Shown: positions 2,473 to 11,240 of the stretch, one piece after another | Layout of the letters: every line of letters begins with the position of its first letter | How positions within the stretch are numbered: position 1 is the stretch's first letter | IMG/VR virus record: IMGVR_UViG_3300006947_000114 | Location: 1 to 20,829 of that record | Reading direction: 5' to 3' (one strand) | Length of the DNA: 20,829 nt | Origin: a virus | The notes under the pieces: model-generated | The model's database searches: none | Seen by the model: only the letters and a program-made list of their open reading frames with translations | Told to the model about the DNA's origin: nothing | Translations under genes and position numbers: made by a program

Positions 2473-5400
2473 ATGAGTAAATCTTCCTTTTACGCTGAGA
2501 GTGGTGCGTCACCTACGGCCACCAATGCCATAGAAAATTCAGTTAGTGGAGCAGCAGCTTCAGCAGCAGCCAGTGCAGCCTCTGCCACAGCAGCAGCTTC
2601 TAGTGCAACCACAGCCAGTGCAGACATTGCGGCTAACACAGCCTCTGCTGCTGCAAGTGAAGCATCCAAAGTTACATCTGTAGCAGCTAAAGTTGCCGCA
2701 GTAGCAGCCCAAGGATACGCAGAGACTGCTGAGACTAACGCTGAGACTGCTGAAGCAGCAGCCCTAGTTAGCCAGAATGCTGCCTCTGCTAGTGCAACCG
2801 CAAGTGAAGCCTCTAAAGTAACCAGTGTCTCTAGTGGCACTACAGCGACAACCAAAGCCTCTGAAGCAGCCTCTTCAGCTACTAACGCATCCTCAAGTGC
2901 TTCACTGGCAGCTTCTAGTGCCACAGCAGCAGCTTCGAGTGCTACCGCAGCAGCCAGTGAGCTAGTAGCGTCTGCTCTTAAAGCTAACAACCTCTCTGAC
3001 TTAGCGAGTGCAACAACTGCCAGGACAAACCTAGGGTTAGGCACAGCGGCTACTACAGCCTCTACTGCTTATGCTACGGCTGCTCAAGGTACTAAGGTTG
3101 ACGGTATAGAGACAAGTGCTACAGCCGACCAGACTGCTGCTGAGATAAGAGCCTTAGTTGAATCTGCTACTGACTCTACTGTATTCACAGATGCTGACCA
3201 CTCAAAGCTAGATGCTATAGAAGCGAGTGCTACAGCAGATCAAACTGCTGCACAGCTACTGACTGCTATCAAGACAGTCGATGGTACAACCTCTGGTTTA
3301 GACTCAGACTTACTCGATGGACAGGAAGGTACTTATTACACAGGCTACACTGATACTGCTGTAGCAGCACTTGTAGATTCATCTCCTGCTACTCTTAATA
3401 CCTTGAATGAACTAGCGGCTGCTCTGGGTGATGACCCAAACTTTGCTACTACTACAGCTACCTCTATAGGTAACAGAGCAGAACTAGCAGGCGCGGCTTT
3501 CACTGGAGCAATCACCACTACCTCAACCTTTGATGGGCGCGATGTTGCTACTGATGGCACTAAGTTAGATACCATAGAAACCTCCGCAGATGTAACCGAT
3601 GCTACCAATGTCACAGCGGCAGGGGCATTAATGCTCTCTGGCGGCACGGTGACAGGCACTTTAACACTGTCCTCAACGTACCCGCGATTAAACTTTACGG
3701 ATACTGATAGCAACTCTGACTTTTCAATTATTAATGCTAATGGGCTTTTGTCAGTCTATGACGTAACAAATGCTGCAAACAGATTTACTATAGCCTCAGA
3801 TGGCACGTCTACATTCGCAGGAGAAATCACAGCCAACGGCGGTATAGCTCTGGGTGACAGTGATGTAGCTACTTTTGGTGCTAGTGATGATCTCAAGATT
3901 CACCACAATGGTTCTAATAGCTATATTCAAGATTCAGGTACTGGTGATTTAATTATAGCAGGAACAAACCTCTCCCTGCGTAATTATGCTACTGACGAGA
4001 TATTCTTGGATGGTACTTCTAATGCGGCTGTTAGGGTTTTCTACAACGGAGCCGCCAAACTAGCCACCACCGCCACAGGCATAGATGTCACTGGTACTGT
4101 GGTAGCTGATGGTTTGACTGTTGGCGCAAGCGCACCGCCAACTTGGGGTACATATCAAGCGGTTGCAACTGTTGGTGATTCAACAATTGTAAATTACCAA
4201 ACATCAAACAGACAAGACTTAGAATTAGTTTCAAATGCTTATTACAATGCAGGATGGAAATTAATTAAAGCATGGGATGCTTCAAGGTATACACAAATTG
4301 ATGGCGCTCATTCGTTGCAGATAGCGGCAAGTGGTGTGGCAGATTCAGCCATTACTTGGAAAGACGCATTAAATATAGACAACAACGGCGACATATCCTT
4401 CTACGAAGATACAGGTACAACGGCTAAGTTCTTCTGGGATGCTAGTCTTGAAAGATTGGGATTAGGCACTGCAAGCCCCCAAACAGATTTACATGTCAAA
4501 GGTGGTTCTGACATGGGTATTAGGATCGAATCAGCTAATGATGGATACGCCAGCTTACAGTTTGGAGATGCAGACGATACTGTTCGCGGGGCTATTACTT
4601 ATAATAATGCAGACGATACTTTACAGTTGAGAGGCTATAACAATACAACTCGCATGACTATAGATAGCTCTGGTAACGTAGGTATAGGCGGCACCCCGTA
4701 TACCAAGGTGGATATAAGAGGCACAAGTGCAACTTCTAGTGCCACCCTCCAAATTGTTGGCACTGGGGTTTCTGGTTTATTATTAGGGCAAGATGCTGAC
4801 GGTGGCGTGATTCGTGGGCAAGGGGGAAACAATGCTCTAAAGTTCTACACTGGTGGTGTAGGAGATAACGCGGCCAGTGCGTCTGGTACGGAACGTATGC
4901 GCATCAATTCAGCGGGTGCAGTTTCCATAGGAACCACGGCCACTAACGGTAAAGTCAGCATCCAAGGTAGTGGTAGTTATAACTCTAGCAACTGGGGCAT
5001 ACCCTCAGACCTGACAATTCGCTCTAGTGAGATGAGTGATACTGCTTATCATTCCATTCTTCAATTAGTATCTATTAGGCAATCACTGGGAACAGGTAAC
5101 ACGGCTAATGGATTCTTAGGGTTTTCAACTATTGATGACTCCAACGGTCAAGGAATTAATGATGCTTGTCGTATTGCAGTAGTCAATGAAGTGGGTAGCT
5201 CAAGAAACTCCGCGACTGCTTTAAGTTTCTGGACAAACGCGGGTGGAACCGCTACCACAGCCCCAACTGAGAAGATGAGGCTCGATAGTAACGGAACCCT
5301 ACTACTAAGCACTCCCGCAAACGGAGCATACGGCTACCTAAACATCAAAGAAGCGGGTGGTGGTGATGTTCGCTTTGGTAAAGGCGCGGGTAATAACTAT

Positions 5401-6396
5401 GATGCCATATTGGGTACTTGGTCAAATAATGATATTGTATTTTATGCTAACTCAGTAGAAAAAATGCGAGTTAAGGCATCAGGTAATGTAGGCATAGGTA
5501 CAACAAGCCCAGACACACAACTACACATTCAAAACCCAAGTACTAGTTGGGGGCAGTACTCAACAATAAGGCTAGGGAGTGACATAGAGGGTACAAACTA
5601 CGCTGACTTAAAGTATTACAGGGGTGCTAGTTCAGCATCTGAGGCCTTCAAGCTTAACGTAGCAGGAACCGATGCTTTAACAGTATTGAAGAGCGGCAAT
5701 GTTGGAGTAGGTACAACAACCCCAGACGCCCCTCTTTCAATTTATGCCCCTAGTGTAACTACAGTAGGCTCTGGATTAGGAGGACTAAGAGTACATAGAC
5801 CGGGCTCAGAGGGCCAGTTTGGTTACTTTGAATACGGCTATGGGTCAGGCACTACCTATATTGGATCATCTTATACTGGAGGCAGTGCGGCCACCTATGG
5901 CAATATCCAGTTTAGACAGCATAGCAATGGTGGCACCCCTATAAACTCGCTCTTACTAGATGGTGCGGGCCGCGTGACCATGCCTTATCAGCCTGCTTTC
6001 AGAGCGGCGGGGAATAACTCTTGGCAAGCCCTGACTAGCAACGTACAAGCGCCCTTTAACGTCGCAGTGGTCAATACAGGTGGTCACTACAGTGCCGCTA
6101 ATAAAAGATTTACTGCCCCAGTTGCAGGAAACTATTACTTTGCTTGGCACACCTACAATGACCATACGCATAATAACGCAATAGTCCCTAGGGTTAATGG
6201 TACTGGACTATCAGGCGGCGGTGGCGATGCCATAGTTGCGTACCAGTCTAATTCCGTGACAGGCAATTTAACAATCAGCGCATCAGTTGTGCTTGCACTT
6301 TCGGCCAACGACTATGTAGATATAGCAAGCCGAAGCAATCATACATCTAATATATATATGCCTCACTCACAATTCTCAGGCTACTTAATAGGATAA
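2473..6396 (+). CDS. Tail fibre / receptor-binding protein with C-terminal C1q-like domain
   Basis: This 1307-residue protein is the likely host-recognition fibre. Residues about 20-175 are an Ala/Ser/Thr-rich, probably coiled-coil stretch. A fibre-type linker (SDLASATTARTNLGLG) follows near residue 180, then paired TSATADQTAAE/ASATADQTAAQ repeats. From about residue 660 to 1080 there are six degenerate repeats of the SGNVGIGTTSP kind (near 662, 734, 814, 937, 1003 and 1074), most preceded by a KMR/RMR-like strand; these usually form trimeric beta structure. The last part, about 1172-1307, carries the C1q/TNF-like pattern: N-TGG-YSAANKRFTAPVAGNYYFAW, and an FSGYLIG ending. No S74-type chaperone and no T7 gp17 N-terminal attachment domain is visible. 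The ribosome site (GAGG at 2456-2459) is weak and far from the ATG. Confidence 0.87.
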   Translation: MSKSSFYAESGASPTATNAIENSVSGAAASAAASAASATAAASSATTASADIAANTASAAASEASKVTSVAAKVAAVAAQGYAETAETNAETAEAAALVSQNAASASATASEASKVTSVSSGTTATTKASEAASSATNASSSASLAASSATAAASSATAAASELVASALKANNLSDLASATTARTNLGLGTAATTASTAYATAAQGTKVDGIETSATADQTAAEIRALVESATDSTVFTDADHSKLDAIEASATADQTAAQLLTAIKTVDGTTSGLDSDLLDGQEGTYYTGYTDTAVAALVDSSPATLNTLNELAAALGDDPNFATTTATSIGNRAELAGAAFTGAITTTSTFDGRDVATDGTKLDTIETSADVTDATNVTAAGALMLSGGTVTGTLTLSSTYPRLNFTDTDSNSDFSIINANGLLSVYDVTNAANRFTIASDGTSTFAGEITANGGIALGDSDVATFGASDDLKIHHNGSNSYIQDSGTGDLIIAGTNLSLRNYATDEIFLDGTSNAAVRVFYNGAAKLATTATGIDVTGTVVADGLTVGASAPPTWGTYQAVATVGDSTIVNYQTSNRQDLELVSNAYYNAGWKLIKAWDASRYTQIDGAHSLQIAASGVADSAITWKDALNIDNNGDISFYEDTGTTAKFFWDASLERLGLGTASPQTDLHVKGGSDMGIRIESANDGYASLQFGDADDTVRGAITYNNADDTLQLRGYNNTTRMTIDSSGNVGIGGTPYTKVDIRGTSATSSATLQIVGTGVSGLLLGQDADGGVIRGQGGNNALKFYTGGVGDNAASASGTERMRINSAGAVSIGTTATNGKVSIQGSGSYNSSNWGIPSDLTIRSSEMSDTAYHSILQLVSIRQSLGTGNTANGFLGFSTIDDSNGQGINDACRIAVVNEVGSSRNSATALSFWTNAGGTATTAPTEKMRLDSNGTLLLSTPANGAYGYLNIKEAGGGDVRFGKGAGNNYDAILGTWSNNDIVFYANSVEKMRVKASGNVGIGTTSPDTQLHIQNPSTSWGQYSTIRLGSDIEGTNYADLKYYRGASSASEAFKLNVAGTDALTVLKSGNVGVGTTTPDAPLSIYAPSVTTVGSGLGGLRVHRPGSEGQFGYFEYGYGSGTTYIGSSYTGGSAATYGNIQFRQHSNGGTPINSLLLDGAGRVTMPYQPAFRAAGNNSWQALTSNVQAPFNVAVVNTGGHYSAANKRFTAPVAGNYYFAWHTYNDHTHNNAIVPRVNGTGLSGGGGDAIVAYQSNSVTGNLTISASVVLALSANDYVDIASRSNHTSNIYMPHSQFSGYLIG

Positions 6397-6410: not shown

Positions 6411-6674
6411 ATGAGTATTACAATTGAACTAACAGCTACACAAGAAAAAGCACTAGCCTTTGTTGCACTATCGCCACAAGAGTGGGTAGAGAACGCAGTC
6501 CATAACCGATGCCGCATTGCAATAGACGAGATATATGCAACCGAAGTTGCTCGCATGACAGCCGACCCAGAGATTACTTCTATCCCTGCTGACAAAGATG
6601 CTGTGGTATTAGCGGCAGATATACAGTCAGCGGCAGAGCGTCAAGCGGCCAGCGAAGCAGAGCGGGCAGAGTAA
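6411..6674 (+). CDS. Small conserved phage protein next to tail fibre, function unknown
   Basis: This 87-residue ORF starts at ATG 6411, with AAAGGA a few bases upstream and 14 nt after the tail fibre stop. The protein starts SITIELTATQEKALAFVA and continues with SPQEWVENAVHNRCRIAIDEI, then an acidic, Ala-rich helical end. I recall similar short proteins with a QEWVxNAVxNRCRIA core beside tail fibre or lysis genes of other podoviruses, without a known function. No transmembrane segment is seen. Its stop codon overlaps the next start by 1 nt (TAATG), so expression is coupled with the membrane-protein gene. It could be a fibre-assembly helper, but nothing in the sequence proves this. Confidence 0.82.
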   Translation: MSITIELTATQEKALAFVALSPQEWVENAVHNRCRIAIDEIYATEVARMTADPEITSIPADKDAVVLAADIQSAAERQAASEAERAE

Positions 6675-6868
6675 TGGAACTAATACTAAAGAGCCTCAAG
6701 TCTAAGACAGTACAGTTCTCTATAGCCCTAGCTGTACTCTCGATACTCCAAGGCTACGTTAACCTGTTGCCAGTGTCAGCAGGAGGACAAGCGATGGTAG
6801 GTTGCCTCATAGCAGCCTGTGTGACGGTATTGCGCTTTGTAACTACAGCACCAATATCATCTAAGTAG
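6674..6868 (+). CDS. Small two-segment membrane protein, holin-like candidate
   Basis: This 64-residue protein starts in a TAATG overlap with the previous gene. Residues about 12-32 (TVQFSIALAVLSILQGYVNLL) and about 39-58 (QAMVGCLIAACVTVLRFV) are hydrophobic and probably cross the inner membrane, with basic residues at both ends (KSLKSK). This is the size and topology of a class II holin. It begins the block that holds the endolysin. A family of small phage membrane proteins with a LKSKTVQF start is known to me only as hypothetical or holin-like, so the lysis role is inferred from size, topology and place. Confidence 0.65.
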   Translation: MELILKSLKSKTVQFSIALAVLSILQGYVNLLPVSAGGQAMVGCLIAACVTVLRFVTTAPISSK

Positions 6869-6910
6869 CCACTAACCACCCACCAATAACACAACACTAT
6901 GGAGATCCCA

Positions 6911-7093
6911 ATGGATGACCCTCATGTCGCCAAAGATACCATTGATTTACTCGCAGCAAGTACAGGGATACTCTCTATGGCAAGCTACTTACCCCCTATG
7001 GCTTCCATCTTTACAATCGTTTGGTTAGGCATACGGATCTATGAGTCACCTACAGTTCAAGCTATTGTTCACAGACGGAGGCCCAAGAAATGA
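6911..7093 (+). CDS. Small single-span membrane protein, holin/antiholin-like candidate
   Basis: The preferred start is ATG 6911, because GGAG at 6901-6904 lies at normal distance before it; the in-frame ATG at 6899 has no ribosome site. The product is 60 residues long. One hydrophobic segment (about residues 15-42, with LSMASYLPPMASIFTIVWLG) is followed by a basic tail (HRRRPKK), which should stay in the cytoplasm. The last 4 nt (ATGA) overlap the start of the endolysin gene, so the two are translationally coupled. Pairing with an endolysin and the other small membrane proteins suggests a holin, antiholin or pinholin role. The function is inferred. Confidence 0.62.
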   Translation: MDDPHVAKDTIDLLAASTGILSMASYLPPMASIFTIVWLGIRIYESPTVQAIVHRRRPKK

Positions 7094-7452
7094 CCCCTGA
7101 GAAATACCAGTACTTCAACCTTGGTGACTTCGACTGCCAAGAGACTGGGGAGAACAAGATGTTACCCCAGTTCATCCATAAGTTAGACCACCTAAGAGCA
7201 GCTTGCGGTTTCCCCTTCAACATAACCTCTGGCTACCGCAGTATCAAACACAGTGCAGAGCGCTCTAAGGCAGTACCAGGCGGCACTCATTCCCAAGGTA
7301 TAGCCGCAGACATCTATGTCAACGGTGGACGACAGAGGATGCAGATAGTCAAACATGCGGCTGCTCTAGGCTTTAATGGCATAGGTGTAGCTAAGAGTTT
7401 TGTACATGTTGATATGCGAGATGGAGACAAAAGTGTTCTTTGGTGCTACTAA
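7090..7452 (+). CDS. Endolysin, peptidase M15 family (L,D-/D-Ala endopeptidase type)
   Basis: This 120-residue protein is a zinc peptidase that cuts the peptide part of peptidoglycan at lysis. The family features are all visible: SGYRS (47-51), the first zinc motif GTHSQGIAADI with His67 and Asp74, and the second FVHVDMRD with His106 and Asp108. The length is normal for the single-domain M15_3 phage endolysins, and there is no signal peptide or cell-wall-binding domain, so it needs a holin to reach the periplasm. It overlaps the upstream small membrane gene by ATGA and the downstream exported-protein gene by 1 nt. T7 uses a different lysozyme (an amidase, gp3.5) encoded among the early genes, so this lysis module is not T7-derived. 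Confidence 0.88.
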   Translation: MTPEKYQYFNLGDFDCQETGENKMLPQFIHKLDHLRAACGFPFNITSGYRSIKHSAERSKAVPGGTHSQGIAADIYVNGGRQRMQIVKHAAALGFNGIGVAKSFVHVDMRDGDKSVLWCY

Positions 7453-8177
7453 TGTGGAAACCAATAGTAGTACTCATGTTTCTCTCTACTACCTTAGTAG
7501 CCCAAGAGTCAGAACCAATGGGCGATACATCCTCAGATAACCTACAGGACGGCTCACTGAATACCAATACTGTTGGTTCTACTGTGAGTTCAAACAACAA
7601 CAGTAAAGATGATAGCGTCACTAACACCTACAACGGTGCAGGCTCAAGTTCAGATATGCCTGTAGGTTCAGCCATAGCACCTTCGTATATGTCTAACGGT
7701 ATGGAAACATGCTTACAAGGCTCTGGTAGATCCTTACAGACAGGTCTAATAGGTTATACCAGTGGTAGCTACCAAGCTGATGTTGACTGTAACAGACGTA
7801 GAGATGCCAAGGTTCTATCAGACCTAGGTATGAAGGTAGCGGCTATCGCAAGGATGTGTGAAGACGTACTAGTCTGGCGTTCTCTCTTTATATCAGCCAC
7901 CCCTTGTCCTATCTTAGTTAGCGGTAGGTTAGTCGTAGGTAAGAGAGCATTCTTAGTGATGAAACGAGAGCCATCTCTTTACATACCAGACTACGGTGAA
8001 GTGGCTATGCGTGTAAGAGCTACTTGGTCTAAGAAGCCACCCACCCCTCGATACACCAAGACACAACTTTGGTACAACTCTATCCTAGACATTGGAGCGC
8101 AAGATAATGAAATTGCAATTGAAGACAATAGCTCTACTAAGTCTGTGTCTGAGCAGTTCCGTAGTTCACTCGACTGA
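7452..8177 (+). CDS. Exported protein with signal peptide, function unknown
   Basis: The start is taken as ATG 7452 (overlapping the endolysin TAA), giving 241 residues; a TTG 12 nt upstream would add four residues with no better ribosome site. The first residues (MWKPIVVLMFLSTTLVAQES) form a signal peptide with probable cleavage after VA or AQ. A Ser/Asn/Thr/Asp-rich linker covers about residues 20-75. The folded part has four Cys residues (in ETCLQ, DVDCN, ARMCE and TPCPIL), which could form disulfides in the periplasm, and ends with a GRLVVGKRAFLVMK strand pair, an LYIPDYG segment and a Ser/Asp-rich tail. I recall similar proteins near lysis genes of other marine podoviruses, always as hypothetical. 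It might be a periplasmic lysis helper, a virion surface protein or an exclusion factor. Confidence 0.68.
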   Translation: MWKPIVVLMFLSTTLVAQESEPMGDTSSDNLQDGSLNTNTVGSTVSSNNNSKDDSVTNTYNGAGSSSDMPVGSAIAPSYMSNGMETCLQGSGRSLQTGLIGYTSGSYQADVDCNRRRDAKVLSDLGMKVAAIARMCEDVLVWRSLFISATPCPILVSGRLVVGKRAFLVMKREPSLYIPDYGEVAMRVRATWSKKPPTPRYTKTQLWYNSILDIGAQDNEIAIEDNSSTKSVSEQFRSSLD

Positions 8178-8970
8178 GTTAGATACCCTGATAGAAACCT
8201 CTGCTCAGATAGTGGGACAGATAGATCGTGGTATCTTAATGACAGGTGCTGCAATGGGCTACTCCCACACTGGCACTGGTGTCTCCGATGGCACACTAGC
8301 AGGAACAGCTTACATCTCAGTAGATCAAGTACAGGCTTACAATCTGGCTCTCACTGGCATGGTGGCTTACCTACCTTATGGTTCAGCCCAAACATACCTA
8401 GAAGAACAGGCCCAAGCTGAACTAGCGTTAATGGAAAGTGCTATAGATACGTTTACATCGGTTGTTGTCGATATGCTTGCTGTGGTTCAGGTAGCAGAGA
8501 TTGCAGCCGCAGCAGCTACCCCAGATGATGAAGCAGCAGTACAAACCTATGTTGCTAACAATACAGATGCTCTAACTATCAACCAAGATGATGCTGACAC
8601 TTACAACCAAAGTCTGGATGACATAGAGATTCACGCTAATGCCGCAGGAGCTTTCTTAGGTGTTGCAGCCAACGCAGATGCCGTAGCTTTCTTAGATCAA
8701 GGTGCTATGGATAACAACACTACAGTTGAGAGTAATACTCTTAGTTACAGTGCGTCTAACCAGGCAGTGAGCATAGCGTGGTCATCTTCTAATACAGTGA
8801 GTGATGTCTATGTCAACGGTACAGACCAATTCAGTATCAATCTGTACATGAGTCATGCAGACATTCTGACAGCAGGAGCAAGCAGCAGCTTGTATCTTAC
8901 TGGGCCAACTGCACTAGGTTACTGTATGTTTATCTACGCGGGTGAATGCCCTGAAGGTGATGGTACATGA
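8107..8970 (+). CDS. Exported Ala/Asp-rich protein with signal peptide, function unknown
   Basis: The start is taken as ATG 8107 (GGAG at 8093-8096), giving 287 residues; an in-frame TTG at 8092 would cover the ribosome site. It overlaps the 3' end of the preceding gene by 71 nt in another frame. The N-terminus (MKLQLKTIALLSLCLSSSVVHS) is a clear Sec signal peptide, cleaved near HS-TELD. The mature protein is acidic, with Ala-rich probable helices up to about residue 190, then a Ser/Asn-rich beta-like part with two Cys six residues apart near the end (GYCMFIYAGEC). No lipobox, enzyme motif or C-terminal anchor is seen. It is co-transcribed with lysis genes and ends in an ATGA overlap with the next gene. 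I do not recognise the family. Confidence 0.68.
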   Translation: MKLQLKTIALLSLCLSSSVVHSTELDTLIETSAQIVGQIDRGILMTGAAMGYSHTGTGVSDGTLAGTAYISVDQVQAYNLALTGMVAYLPYGSAQTYLEEQAQAELALMESAIDTFTSVVVDMLAVVQVAEIAAAAATPDDEAAVQTYVANNTDALTINQDDADTYNQSLDDIEIHANAAGAFLGVAANADAVAFLDQGAMDNNTTVESNTLSYSASNQAVSIAWSSSNTVSDVYVNGTDQFSINLYMSHADILTAGASSSLYLTGPTALGYCMFIYAGECPEGDGT

Positions 8971-9482
8971 GTCTAGAAACCACTGAACTAAAGATAGGTG
9001 ACACCTCCTTTAAGGGTGTCTACATAGCGATACTGTTTTCACTGGCGACTACCCTAGGGGGTGGCGTATGGACGGCTAGTAGCTTGTATGGGCGCTTAGA
9101 AGCACAAGAGTCCAGGGTTATCCCAGACATAACATCTATTGAAGAAACTATAGCGTTAAACAGGCAAGAACTAAACGCTCAGATACTTTTGATAGAGCAG
9201 CAACTCAGTGCAAACGATGTGAGTCAACTACAAGGCAAGTTAGCCACCCTAGGTACTAACCTTGTAACCATCATGGAGCAGCAAGAGAAGTTACTGTTGA
9301 TTGATGCAAACGTACAGAAGTTAGCTCTAGATAGTGAATCTATGAAAGCCACAGTAGCTAAAGCTGAACTCATTACCCAAGCAATGTCCGGTGTTAACTC
9401 TGAGATGAAAGTTATCAAGAGAGAGATCACTGACCTTTGGAGTGGGCTAGATTATGTCACTGAGAGTAACCCCTTAAAGTAA
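8967..9482 (+). CDS. Membrane-anchored coiled-coil protein, possible inner-membrane spanin
   Basis: This 171-residue protein starts in an ATGA overlap with the previous gene. After a short N-terminal tail there is one transmembrane segment at about residues 17-40 (GVYIAILFSLATTLGGGVW), and then about 130 residues of charged heptad-like helix (IEETIALNRQELNAQILLIE, QQEKLLLID). This is the topology of an i-spanin, with the N-terminus inside and a long periplasmic coiled coil, which would join inner and outer membranes at the last stage of lysis. No lipoprotein (o-spanin) gene with a lipobox was found beside it. The exported proteins just upstream are the only candidates for a partner. A virion or signalling role is also possible. 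Confidence 0.68.
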   Translation: MSLETTELKIGDTSFKGVYIAILFSLATTLGGGVWTASSLYGRLEAQESRVIPDITSIEETIALNRQELNAQILLIEQQLSANDVSQLQGKLATLGTNLVTIMEQQEKLLLIDANVQKLALDSESMKATVAKAELITQAMSGVNSEMKVIKREITDLWSGLDYVTESNPLK

Positions 9483-9495
9483 CTAGGAGAGTAAA

Positions 9496-9870
9496 ATGCT
9501 ACAAGCACTACTAGCACCAGTAGCTAACCTTGTCGGTGGCTACCTTAAAAACAAATCTGAAGAGAAGCAGGCCGTACACCAAGCCAAGATCACAGCCATA
9601 CAAAGTGATGCTGACTGGGAATCAAAGATGGCAGGAGCCTCTGGAGCCTCATGGAAAGATGAGTATCTAATTGTACTCCTAACGTCACCAGTGATAGCCA
9701 TCATGTATGGTGCTATGACAGATAGCCCAGAGATCATTGAGCGCGTTAAGTACGGCTTAGAGACTCTTGAGTTACTCCCTGATTGGTTTTCCTACATGTT
9801 AGGTGTAGGTGTAACAGCTTCCTTTGGTATCAAGGGTGCTGACAAGATCATGAAGCTAAGGAGTAAGTAA
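9496..9870 (+). CDS. Holin, GTA-type 3TM family-like
   Basis: This 124-residue protein has a good ribosome site (AGGAGAG before ATG 9496). It shows an amphipathic or weakly hydrophobic start (LLAPVANLVGGYL), a charged helix, and then the SWKDEYLIVLLTSPVIAIMY segment and a second hydrophobic segment (DWFSYMLGVGVTASFGI), ending in a basic helix. The pattern of W-DE before a membrane segment with TSP, and a P-WF segment before FG-K, fits the GTA_holin_3TM family as I remember it. Such holins make inner-membrane holes that release the endolysin. It is followed by a 1-nt overlap (TAATG) with a 49-codon gene. It is separated from the endolysin by three other genes, which is unusual. Confidence 0.72.
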   Translation: MLQALLAPVANLVGGYLKNKSEEKQAVHQAKITAIQSDADWESKMAGASGASWKDEYLIVLLTSPVIAIMYGAMTDSPEIIERVKYGLETLELLPDWFSYMLGVGVTASFGIKGADKIMKLRSK

Positions 9871-10080: not shown

Positions 10081-10251
10081 TTGCGGCATCGGAGTCACAC
10101 TCCAGTGTAAATCCTTGAATTCCCTGCCCGGGTGGCGAAATTGGTAGACGCAACGGACTTAAAATAGAAATTCCTAGCGAAAACAAGGACTTAGAGAGCG
10201 CAAAGGACATATTCCTGAGTAGCTCCCCCCAATCAAAACCAGTGTGACTCC
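10075..10251. repeat. Two nested inverted repeats flanking attP (possible integrase arm sites)
   Basis: Pair one: GGAGTCACACT (10091-10101) and its exact reverse complement AGTGTGACTCC (10241-10251). Pair two: TATCCTTTGCG (10075-10085) and CGCAAAGGACA (10199-10209), complementary at 10 of 11 positions. Both pairs enclose the tRNA-like core at 10126-10165. In addition GGACTTA occurs in the core end (10155-10161) and again at 10187-10193. Arm-type integrase sites commonly lie on both sides of the core as short repeats, so these are candidates. The 11/11 pair might instead fold in RNA. Confidence 0.5.
10126..10165 (+). other. attP: attP core: 5' half of a tRNA-Leu(UAA) gene
   Basis: The 40 nt read as the 5' part of tRNA-Leu: acceptor strand GCCCGGG, TG at positions 8-9, a D arm (GCG/CGC) with GG in the loop, anticodon-stem strand ACGGA, and a loop with the TAA anticodon. 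The resemblance stops one base into the 3' anticodon strand; the following AGAAATTCC cannot close the stem or make a T arm. By eye, 33 of 40 bases match the E. coli tRNA-Leu(UAA) I remember. It lies 116 bp upstream of a tyrosine integrase, the standard place for attP. T7-like cyanophage P-SSP7 and some pelagiphages are known to carry such tRNA segments. Confidence 0.85.
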
Positions 10252-10280: not shown

Positions 10281-11240
10281 ATGTCGTACAACCCCGAAAA
10301 ACAACTAGAGTTATACATTAGCAATACAGAAGTACATAGCCACACCCCCATCGACTTCGACAACAGTTACACCATAGAGAAAATACCTTCACTACTTCAG
10401 TTCACCCAAGCTCACTATAAGAGAATCTGGGATACTGACAGCCACAGAAAAGAATCACTAGCGAAAATAGTTCGGCTATCAGAATTTGCCGACAATGAGT
10501 TTCGCCCAATCACCCAGTACCGCCCCTCGTACATCTACGACTTCCTAGAACATAGGCGAGAAGACTTCGGTAACAAAGAAGGAACACTCAACAGATACAT
10601 AGCTTGTCTCAGTAAAATCTTTAGGTTCTATGAAGATGAGTATAACGTCCAGATAGCCCCAAGGTTACGCTATAGACGCGATCCTAACAGTAGAGGCAGA
10701 CCTAGAGTCTTCTCCAAAGTTGAACAGAGTCAGATTCTAGAGATGCTATCAACCAGTGAGTACCCTTGGGCTGCACACATGGTTACCTTCGCTTTAAAGT
10801 CTGGTATGCGTAAGGGTGAGATCTTAGGTATCGGTAAGACAGCCGCTGAAGTCAAGAGAGATGAAGTCTACGGTCGCATCATGTCTGAGGGTGGCCTCCA
10901 TAAGATACACCTATACAGTACTAAGAATGGTGATGAACGCATAGTTCCCCTACAGCCCGCCGCATGGGCGGCTCTACAGGCTCTAAAGGAGCGTCCCTCT
11001 ACAGACTTTGATCACCACCAGTTCTACAGGGTGTGGGACAGGGTGCGTAGGAGGTTAGCCCCCAACGATGAACACTTTGTATTCCATGTCTGTAGGCATA
11101 CAGCCGCAACTGAACTTGCTCTCAAAGGTTTCAACATGAAGCAGATAGGTGACTTCTTAGGTCACAAAGCAATCGTAACTACAGCTAAGTACATTAAGAG
11201 TACTGAAGAAAGTACCCATGAAATGGCTATGGCTTTGTAG
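10281..11240 (+). CDS. int: Tyrosine recombinase (phage integrase)
   Basis: This 319-residue protein inserts and possibly excises the phage at the tRNA-Leu site. A good ribosome site (AAAGGAG) precedes ATG 10281. The N-terminal part (about 30-145) looks like a SAM-like core-binding domain with an arm-binding start. The catalytic domain has all expected residues: Arg177 in SGMRKGEI, Lys215 in the STKNGDER beta-hairpin, His269 and Arg272 in HVCRHTAATELAL, His295 in FLGHKA and the nucleophile Tyr304 in TAKYIK. The length is usual for the family. attP lies directly upstream, and a phage-type promoter lies farther upstream. In a prophage the gene would be cut off from those promoters and placed behind the host tRNA promoter. 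No excisionase gene was recognised. Confidence 0.93.
   Translation: MSYNPEKQLELYISNTEVHSHTPIDFDNSYTIEKIPSLLQFTQAHYKRIWDTDSHRKESLAKIVRLSEFADNEFRPITQYRPSYIYDFLEHRREDFGNKEGTLNRYIACLSKIFRFYEDEYNVQIAPRLRYRRDPNSRGRPRVFSKVEQSQILEMLSTSEYPWAAHMVTFALKSGMRKGEILGIGKTAAEVKRDEVYGRIMSEGGLHKIHLYSTKNGDERIVPLQPAAWAALQALKERPSTDFDHHQFYRVWDRVRRRLAPNDEHFVFHVCRHTAATELALKGFNMKQIGDFLGHKAIVTTAKYIKSTEESTHEMAMAL

Follow-up and report, generated by a model that had tools for sequence, protein, structure and literature searches.

The window in this study is the whole 20,829-nucleotide stretch (positions 1-20,829) of the IMG/VR virus record IMGVR_UViG_3300006947_000114, and this record is a fragment. Capsid-like, tail-fibre-like, integrase-like, T7-type RNA polymerase and DNA polymerase genes were read from the ORF list, and the T7-type RNA polymerase was confirmed by tblastn. 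The tail-fibre-like ORF (2473-6396) is long, and its N-terminal part is repetitive and rich in Ala, Ser and Thr. Positions 10125-10200, just 5' of the integrase-like ORF (10281-11240), resemble the 5' half of a tRNA-Leu gene and may be an attachment site; neither ARAGORN nor Rfam returned a match for this stretch. The genes of the region analysed here, including those designated A, B and C, are as follows.

6674-6868, plus strand: small membrane ORF, possible second holin (weak holin match to phrog_9752, E=0.049)
6899-7093: small membrane ORF upstream of the endolysin, read from the ORFs
7090-7452, plus strand: endolysin of the Peptidase_M15_3 type, directly 5' of A (Peptidase_M15_3, 3e-10; phrog_894 endolysin, 8.7e-26)
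7452-8177, plus strand: gene A, predicted exported protein of 241 aa (ATG at 7452, stop at 8177)
8107-8970, plus strand: gene B, predicted exported protein of 287 aa (ATG at 8107, stop at 8970)
8967-9482, plus strand: gene C, single-span protein of 171 aa (ATG at 8967, stop at 9482)
9496-9870, plus strand: 3TM holin-like protein of 124 aa, 13 nt 3' of C (phrog_2524, 2e-33)

The endolysin stop overlaps A by 1 nt, B starts inside A with an overlap of 71 nt, and B and C share 4 nt (ATGA), in agreement with the overlaps of 4-71 nt given by the original prediction. Within the B type of the window, the A/B overlap was mostly 56 or 71 nt in a redundant set of loci. The original prediction had also placed two exported proteins and a single-span coiled-coil protein between an endolysin and a 3TM holin, and the ORFs, the Peptidase_M15 match and our reading of the sequence agree with this arrangement, the coiled coil being judged by eye. 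The product of 9496-9870 is called a holin from its position and its resemblance to 3TM proteins that elsewhere neighbour lysozymes, because phrog_2524 has no function label; its relatives adjoin lysozymes in pelagiphages. A, B and C do separate the endolysin from this 3TM gene, but two further small membrane ORFs (6674-6868 and 6899-7093) lie 5' of the endolysin. As the first of these has the weak match to a holin, the endolysin perhaps still has a holin nearby.

The N-termini of A (MWKPIVVLMFLSTTLVA) and B (MKLQLKTIALLSLCLSSSVVHS) are signal-peptide-like, as read from the sequences themselves and not by a trained predictor. In A, this segment is followed by a disordered region rich in Ser, Thr and Asn (about residues 17-76) and by a four-cysteine core. 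The cysteines C87, C113, C136 and C152 of the window protein were invariant in 43 aligned rows, and the core was the most conserved part of the module: in 35 modules with the long, pelagiphage type of B, designated Bp, its mean identity was 64%, versus 37% for C and 26-30% for the ends of Bp. The AlphaFold2 model of A (mean pLDDT 64.6) has low confidence at 17-76 and contains fairly confident helices and a hairpin at about 110-180, preceded by a beta hairpin at 88-109. A sequence search of A against PDB gave no match, and none of the 87 matches in a fold search against PDB reached E<=0.001. Pfam, NCBIfam and PADLOC gave nothing significant for A, B or C. The original view that A and B have no known domain needs one correction, as A, the sole member of the trio with a PHROG match, hits phrog_20531 (4.4e-9), whose function is unlabelled.

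B was modelled at low confidence (pLDDT 55) with a helical domain (about 72-202), followed by a beta segment with C-terminal cysteines. Two unrelated main types occupy the B slot, namely the helical type of the window and Bp, which has a Glu-rich middle. In a fold search of B against BFVD, three phage proteins without known function reached E<=0.001. The likeness of B to chemoreceptors in a PDB sequence search (0.048 and 0.084) was weak and was taken as a chance match of helical bundles. C has one N-terminal membrane span, read from the sequence, and then a long polar, coiled-coil-like part, judged by eye and unscored. The net charge of C was more positive before the span than after it in 50/68 modules. 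The window C ends in NPLK, and N168-P169-L170 are invariant in 47/47 rows. All 68 non-redundant modules have a Pro-Leu/Ile/Met end in C, of which 57 are NPL or NPM and 11 are SPL, NPI or KPL. Against PHROGs, C reached the Rz-like phrog_7686 at E=0.092 only.

A tblastn search of 50,697 phage records detected 11 with relatives of A, as listed below.

Roseobacter phages: CRP-207 and CRP-810
Pelagiphages: HTVC023P, HTVC033P, HTVC115P, HTVC202P, Baldr and Mosig (Kyanoviridae)
Further records: two Manatee Spring genomes and the Autographiviridae phage MedDCM-OCT-S28-C10

Direct reading of the ORFs revealed the same order in 11/11 isolates: A comes first, another predicted exported protein follows, and the last is a single-span protein with an NPL or NPM end. 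The carriers are podoviruses, Autographiviridae and one Kyanoviridae myovirus. The module genes are annotated in these records as 'OmpA family', 'lysozyme', 'TonB', 'carbohydrate binding', 'DUF2730' or hypothetical, and these names are mutually inconsistent. The window and these isolates supplied the sequences for the A, B, Bp and C models, and the HMM detection of the genes in 11/11 isolates is therefore circular.

The linkage of the genes was analysed in loci sampled as close relatives (the best 80 of at least 599 and the best 80 of at least 385) and partly redundant, with 70 clusters at 80% A identity. By HMM, all three genes were present in order in every locus with room: 18/18 in the A-baited scan (23 loci), 54/54 in the A1-baited scan (80 loci, the best 80 of at least 599 relatives) and 54/54 in the C-baited scan (78 loci). 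The A7 scan together with six other loci gave 66/66 (86 loci; the best 80 of at least 385 relatives). With Bp as bait (40 loci), A was found upstream in 28/28 and C downstream in 29/29. The genes were never apart in any sampled locus with enough flank, in line with the predicted co-occurrence in relatives. Since their order was kept in every such locus, whereas the lysis neighbours vary (30/40, see below), A-B-C can be regarded as one unit. The pN/pS values were 0.04-0.52 in 34/34 pairwise gene comparisons, indicating purifying selection, and together with the conserved gene order they argue that A, B and C are more than chance ORFs. The statement that export of two such proteins at this position is rare in phages proved too narrow, as the module occurs commonly among marine phages, with at least 599 and at least 385 relatives of A in the two scans. 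An A7 scan of genome contigs for prophage copies gave 18 pattern matches and no relatives.

The Roseobacter-phage branch contains an additional gene of 70-86 aa, designated L, directly 5' of A in CRP-207, CRP-810 and MW202675 (3/3 isolates of the branch).

CRP-810 (OR671924), 4639-4899: L, unannotated in the record
CRP-207 (MZ892987), 1728-1940: L, unannotated in the record
MW202675, 886-1101: L, annotated as hypothetical

As read from the sequence, L has a lipobox followed by four cysteines in the pattern of A and is an outer-membrane-type lipoprotein. An HMM made from the three L proteins alone recovered A across the family, including the window A at 2.5e-5. Among the best 80 of at least 385 relatives in IMG/VR, L was located 5' of A in 70/70 loci with at least 700 nt upstream, the lipobox being found by script in 61 and by eye in 9. 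A tblastn search of the 50,697 phage records did not find L outside its three phage records. In the branch of the window the endolysin takes the place of L, and the pelagiphage branch is also without L. No plausible lipobox gene was detected in the 20.8-kb window, itself a fragment, by strict and looser lipobox scans. The annotated start of A in MW202675 (1266) appears truncated. In CRP-207, the membrane protein after C, gp72 (3870-4226), has by eye an EF-hand-like motif, DEDGDGIITDDE, before its spans, and it is possibly a calcium-binding holin-like protein.

The module is often close to lysis genes. Of 40 flanked, non-redundant modules, 30 have an endolysin or a 3TM holin-like gene no more than 2.5 kb away, and 21 of the 40 have an endolysin. 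Among the isolates, a lysis gene lies within 1.5 kb in 6/11 versus 0.89 expected (P about 1e-4, from a random placement that ignores late-gene clustering). In the other five (HTVC202P, Baldr, HTVC115P, CRP-207 and CRP-810), the nearest lysis gene found is 7-26 kb away from the module. The Mosig module starts 254 nt after a GTA_holin_3TM gene, and that of S28-C10 is situated between a 3TM gene and TerS/TerL. In its relatives HTVC200P, HTVC119P, HTVC031P and HTVC019P, that region holds different small membrane genes, and the corresponding order in T7 is holin, TerS, Rz, Rz1, TerL.

From these features we tentatively propose, at somewhat less than an even chance, that A, B and C constitute a trans-envelope, spanin-like complex for outer-membrane lysis. 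A-B-C, with L in the sister branch, would be a late complex made by the phage that spans the host envelope and performs or completes lysis of the outer membrane. C would be anchored in the inner membrane, its coiled coil reaching into the periplasm, and the exported partners would dock at its conserved Pro-Leu end. The core of A, probably rich in disulphides, would be the conserved working part and act where the outer membrane faces the periplasm. L, as a lipoprotein copy of the A domain, would anchor this core to the outer membrane in the Roseobacter-type phages. B, with its unrelated types and fastest divergence, may be a tether that fits the complex to the host envelope. After removal of the peptidoglycan by holin and endolysin, the complex could collapse or rearrange and thereby open the outer membrane.

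The term 'spanin-like' fits best because of the predicted inner-membrane coiled-coil partner, the position in the lysis region and the lipoprotein partner in the sister branch. The two-component spanins (lambda Rz/Rz1 and T7 gp18.5/18.7) likewise have overlapping genes and a lysis/terminase neighbourhood, their single-span coiled-coil protein of the inner membrane has a putative counterpart in C, and the Roseobacter-type branch shares with them a small cysteine-bearing lipoprotein of the outer-membrane type. The available text of PMC6139136 describes binding of Rz and Rz1 via their C termini. Unlike these spanins, the module has two extra secreted proteins, A and B, between the putative arms. 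We keep A-B-C apart from Rz/Rz1 because no lipoprotein was found in the lineage of the window (nor in the pelagiphage branch), the module has no match to a spanin or Rz family, and its lytic function is a prediction; PF03245 (Rz) was above the cut-off in 0/11 isolates. The unimolecular spanins such as T1 gp11 would act at the same step as A-B-C, but no module protein joins a lipobox to a C-terminal span, and the span of C is N-terminal. A lipobox-like regular expression matched 4/68 A and 3/68 B proteins, and neither A nor B of the window. The length of C argues against the spanin-like reading in some phages, since the shortest C has 48 aa after the span and such proteins cannot cross the periplasm alone. 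Compensation between the lengths of C and B, which is expected for a fixed span, was not found (Spearman +0.73 and +0.34 within types). The fold searches of A against PDB and B against BFVD gave no match that supports a membrane-active role.

Other factors for the outer-membrane step were searched for in the carriers. The lipobox scan recovered lambda Rz1 and Bor, T7 gp18.7, and T1 gp11 and Cor; of the three known L proteins, its strict version found one and the looser version all. In 6/8 Bp-type isolates the scan gave no plausible lipoprotein, and thus no o-spanin or u-spanin is evident there; Baldr has one candidate and Mosig two. This absence of lipoproteins and Rz is compatible with a role of A-B-C in the outer-membrane step but is no proof of it. 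The absence is not specific to module carriers, because the module-free HTVC019P, HTVC031P, HTVC119P and HTVC200P also showed no clear lipoprotein in the stretches read. HTVC115P carries, in addition to A-B-C, another pair consisting of a 1TM coiled-coil protein and a small cysteine protein, and A-B-C is therefore not the sole candidate for the step in this phage. Near TerS-TerL, several pelagiphages encode phrog_20984, which is coiled-coil-like with one TM segment, together with phrog_24646, a small protein with two cysteines (L195:8641-9215, the L197-L199 equivalents and L010:5872-6439); the two look like another unrecognised spanin-like pair. This pair, found in Pelagivirus and Votkovvirus, resembles the module in its composition and its position before TerS-TerL, and the C model weakly matched it in HTVC200P (E=6.6e-5). 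It differs in having no A or B and no NPL end, and it coexists with A-B-C in HTVC115P. HTVC119P has a different 62-aa 1TM gene at this site.

Among the functions originally guessed for the genes, a new spanin-like system is the one that fits best; an exclusion system and a virion or exit coat are less probable alternatives. T5 Llp and T1/N15 Cor are lipoproteins in superinfection exclusion and receptor blocking. A late envelope complex may similarly act on an outer-membrane receptor or entry path and spare the cell or the new virions wasteful adsorption, a role that we consider unlikely but worth weighing. L, as a small cysteine-rich lipoprotein of the outer-membrane type, would resemble Cor of T1, and the lineage-variable B, with the lowest mean identity among A, B and C, behaves as expected of a receptor-facing part; one Bp member has a weak match to CBM_4_9 (E=0.0089, below the cut-off). 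To our knowledge, however, the exclusion lipoproteins work alone, whereas C and B are always present here, and the lysis genes beside the module in 30/40 cases also speak against exclusion. PADLOC gave no significant match, a weak argument as its library covers host defence. A regulator of lysis timing, for which the T4 antiholin RI is the model, seems improbable. A or L would serve as a periplasmic cysteine-rich sensor that acts upon the neighbouring 3TM holin-like protein, and C would be the membrane partner. The 3TM gene does often adjoin the module, and A and L are predicted secreted cysteine-rich domains, but in several isolates even the nearest holin found is distant from the module, and three or four proteins exceed what a regulator needs.

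A surface or virion role is about equally improbable, in which the proteins would be exported as fibres or a coat, aggregate cells ('sibling capture') or be acquired by virions at exit. The low-complexity, Ser/Thr/Asn-rich N-terminal part of A would suit it. Related pelagiphages also have curli-like clusters (CsgF-CsgG-curlin; HTVC008M and Melnitz), which, like the module, are multi-gene exported sets of related marine phages with a putative envelope role, and the accessible parts of PMC7029224 and PMC9599517 propose them as lysis regulators or fibres. Against this role, CsgG and curlin repeats were found in 0/24 records with the module, the A, B, Bp, C and L models had no match in the HTVC008M curli stretch, and C is a protein of the inner-membrane type. 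On the first two of these results, we rejected membership of A-B-C in the curli clusters. Mosig has A-B-C and HTVC008M has csgFG, and the two kinds of clusters may exclude each other. 

No title or abstract in the open-licence literature searched named the A-B-C set, and the portions available of PMC9038755, PMC11288001, PMC12753301, PMC6139136, PMC9599517, PMC7029224 and PMC9004378 do not describe it. Little is understood of the way in which the most abundant phages of the ocean breach the outer membranes of their SAR11 and Roseobacter hosts. According to the available part of PMC6139136, a spanin was not found in 91 of 677 surveyed phages, and that of PMC12753301 attributes about 7.59% of viromic reads to HTVC023P-type phages, whose type phage HTVC023P carries the module. 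A conserved set of unannotated, predicted envelope proteins that was never found separated provides named genes for testing the outer-membrane step, and the A core, the Pro-Leu tail and L are sequence-defined handles to annotate many loci that are now nameless or have conflicting names.
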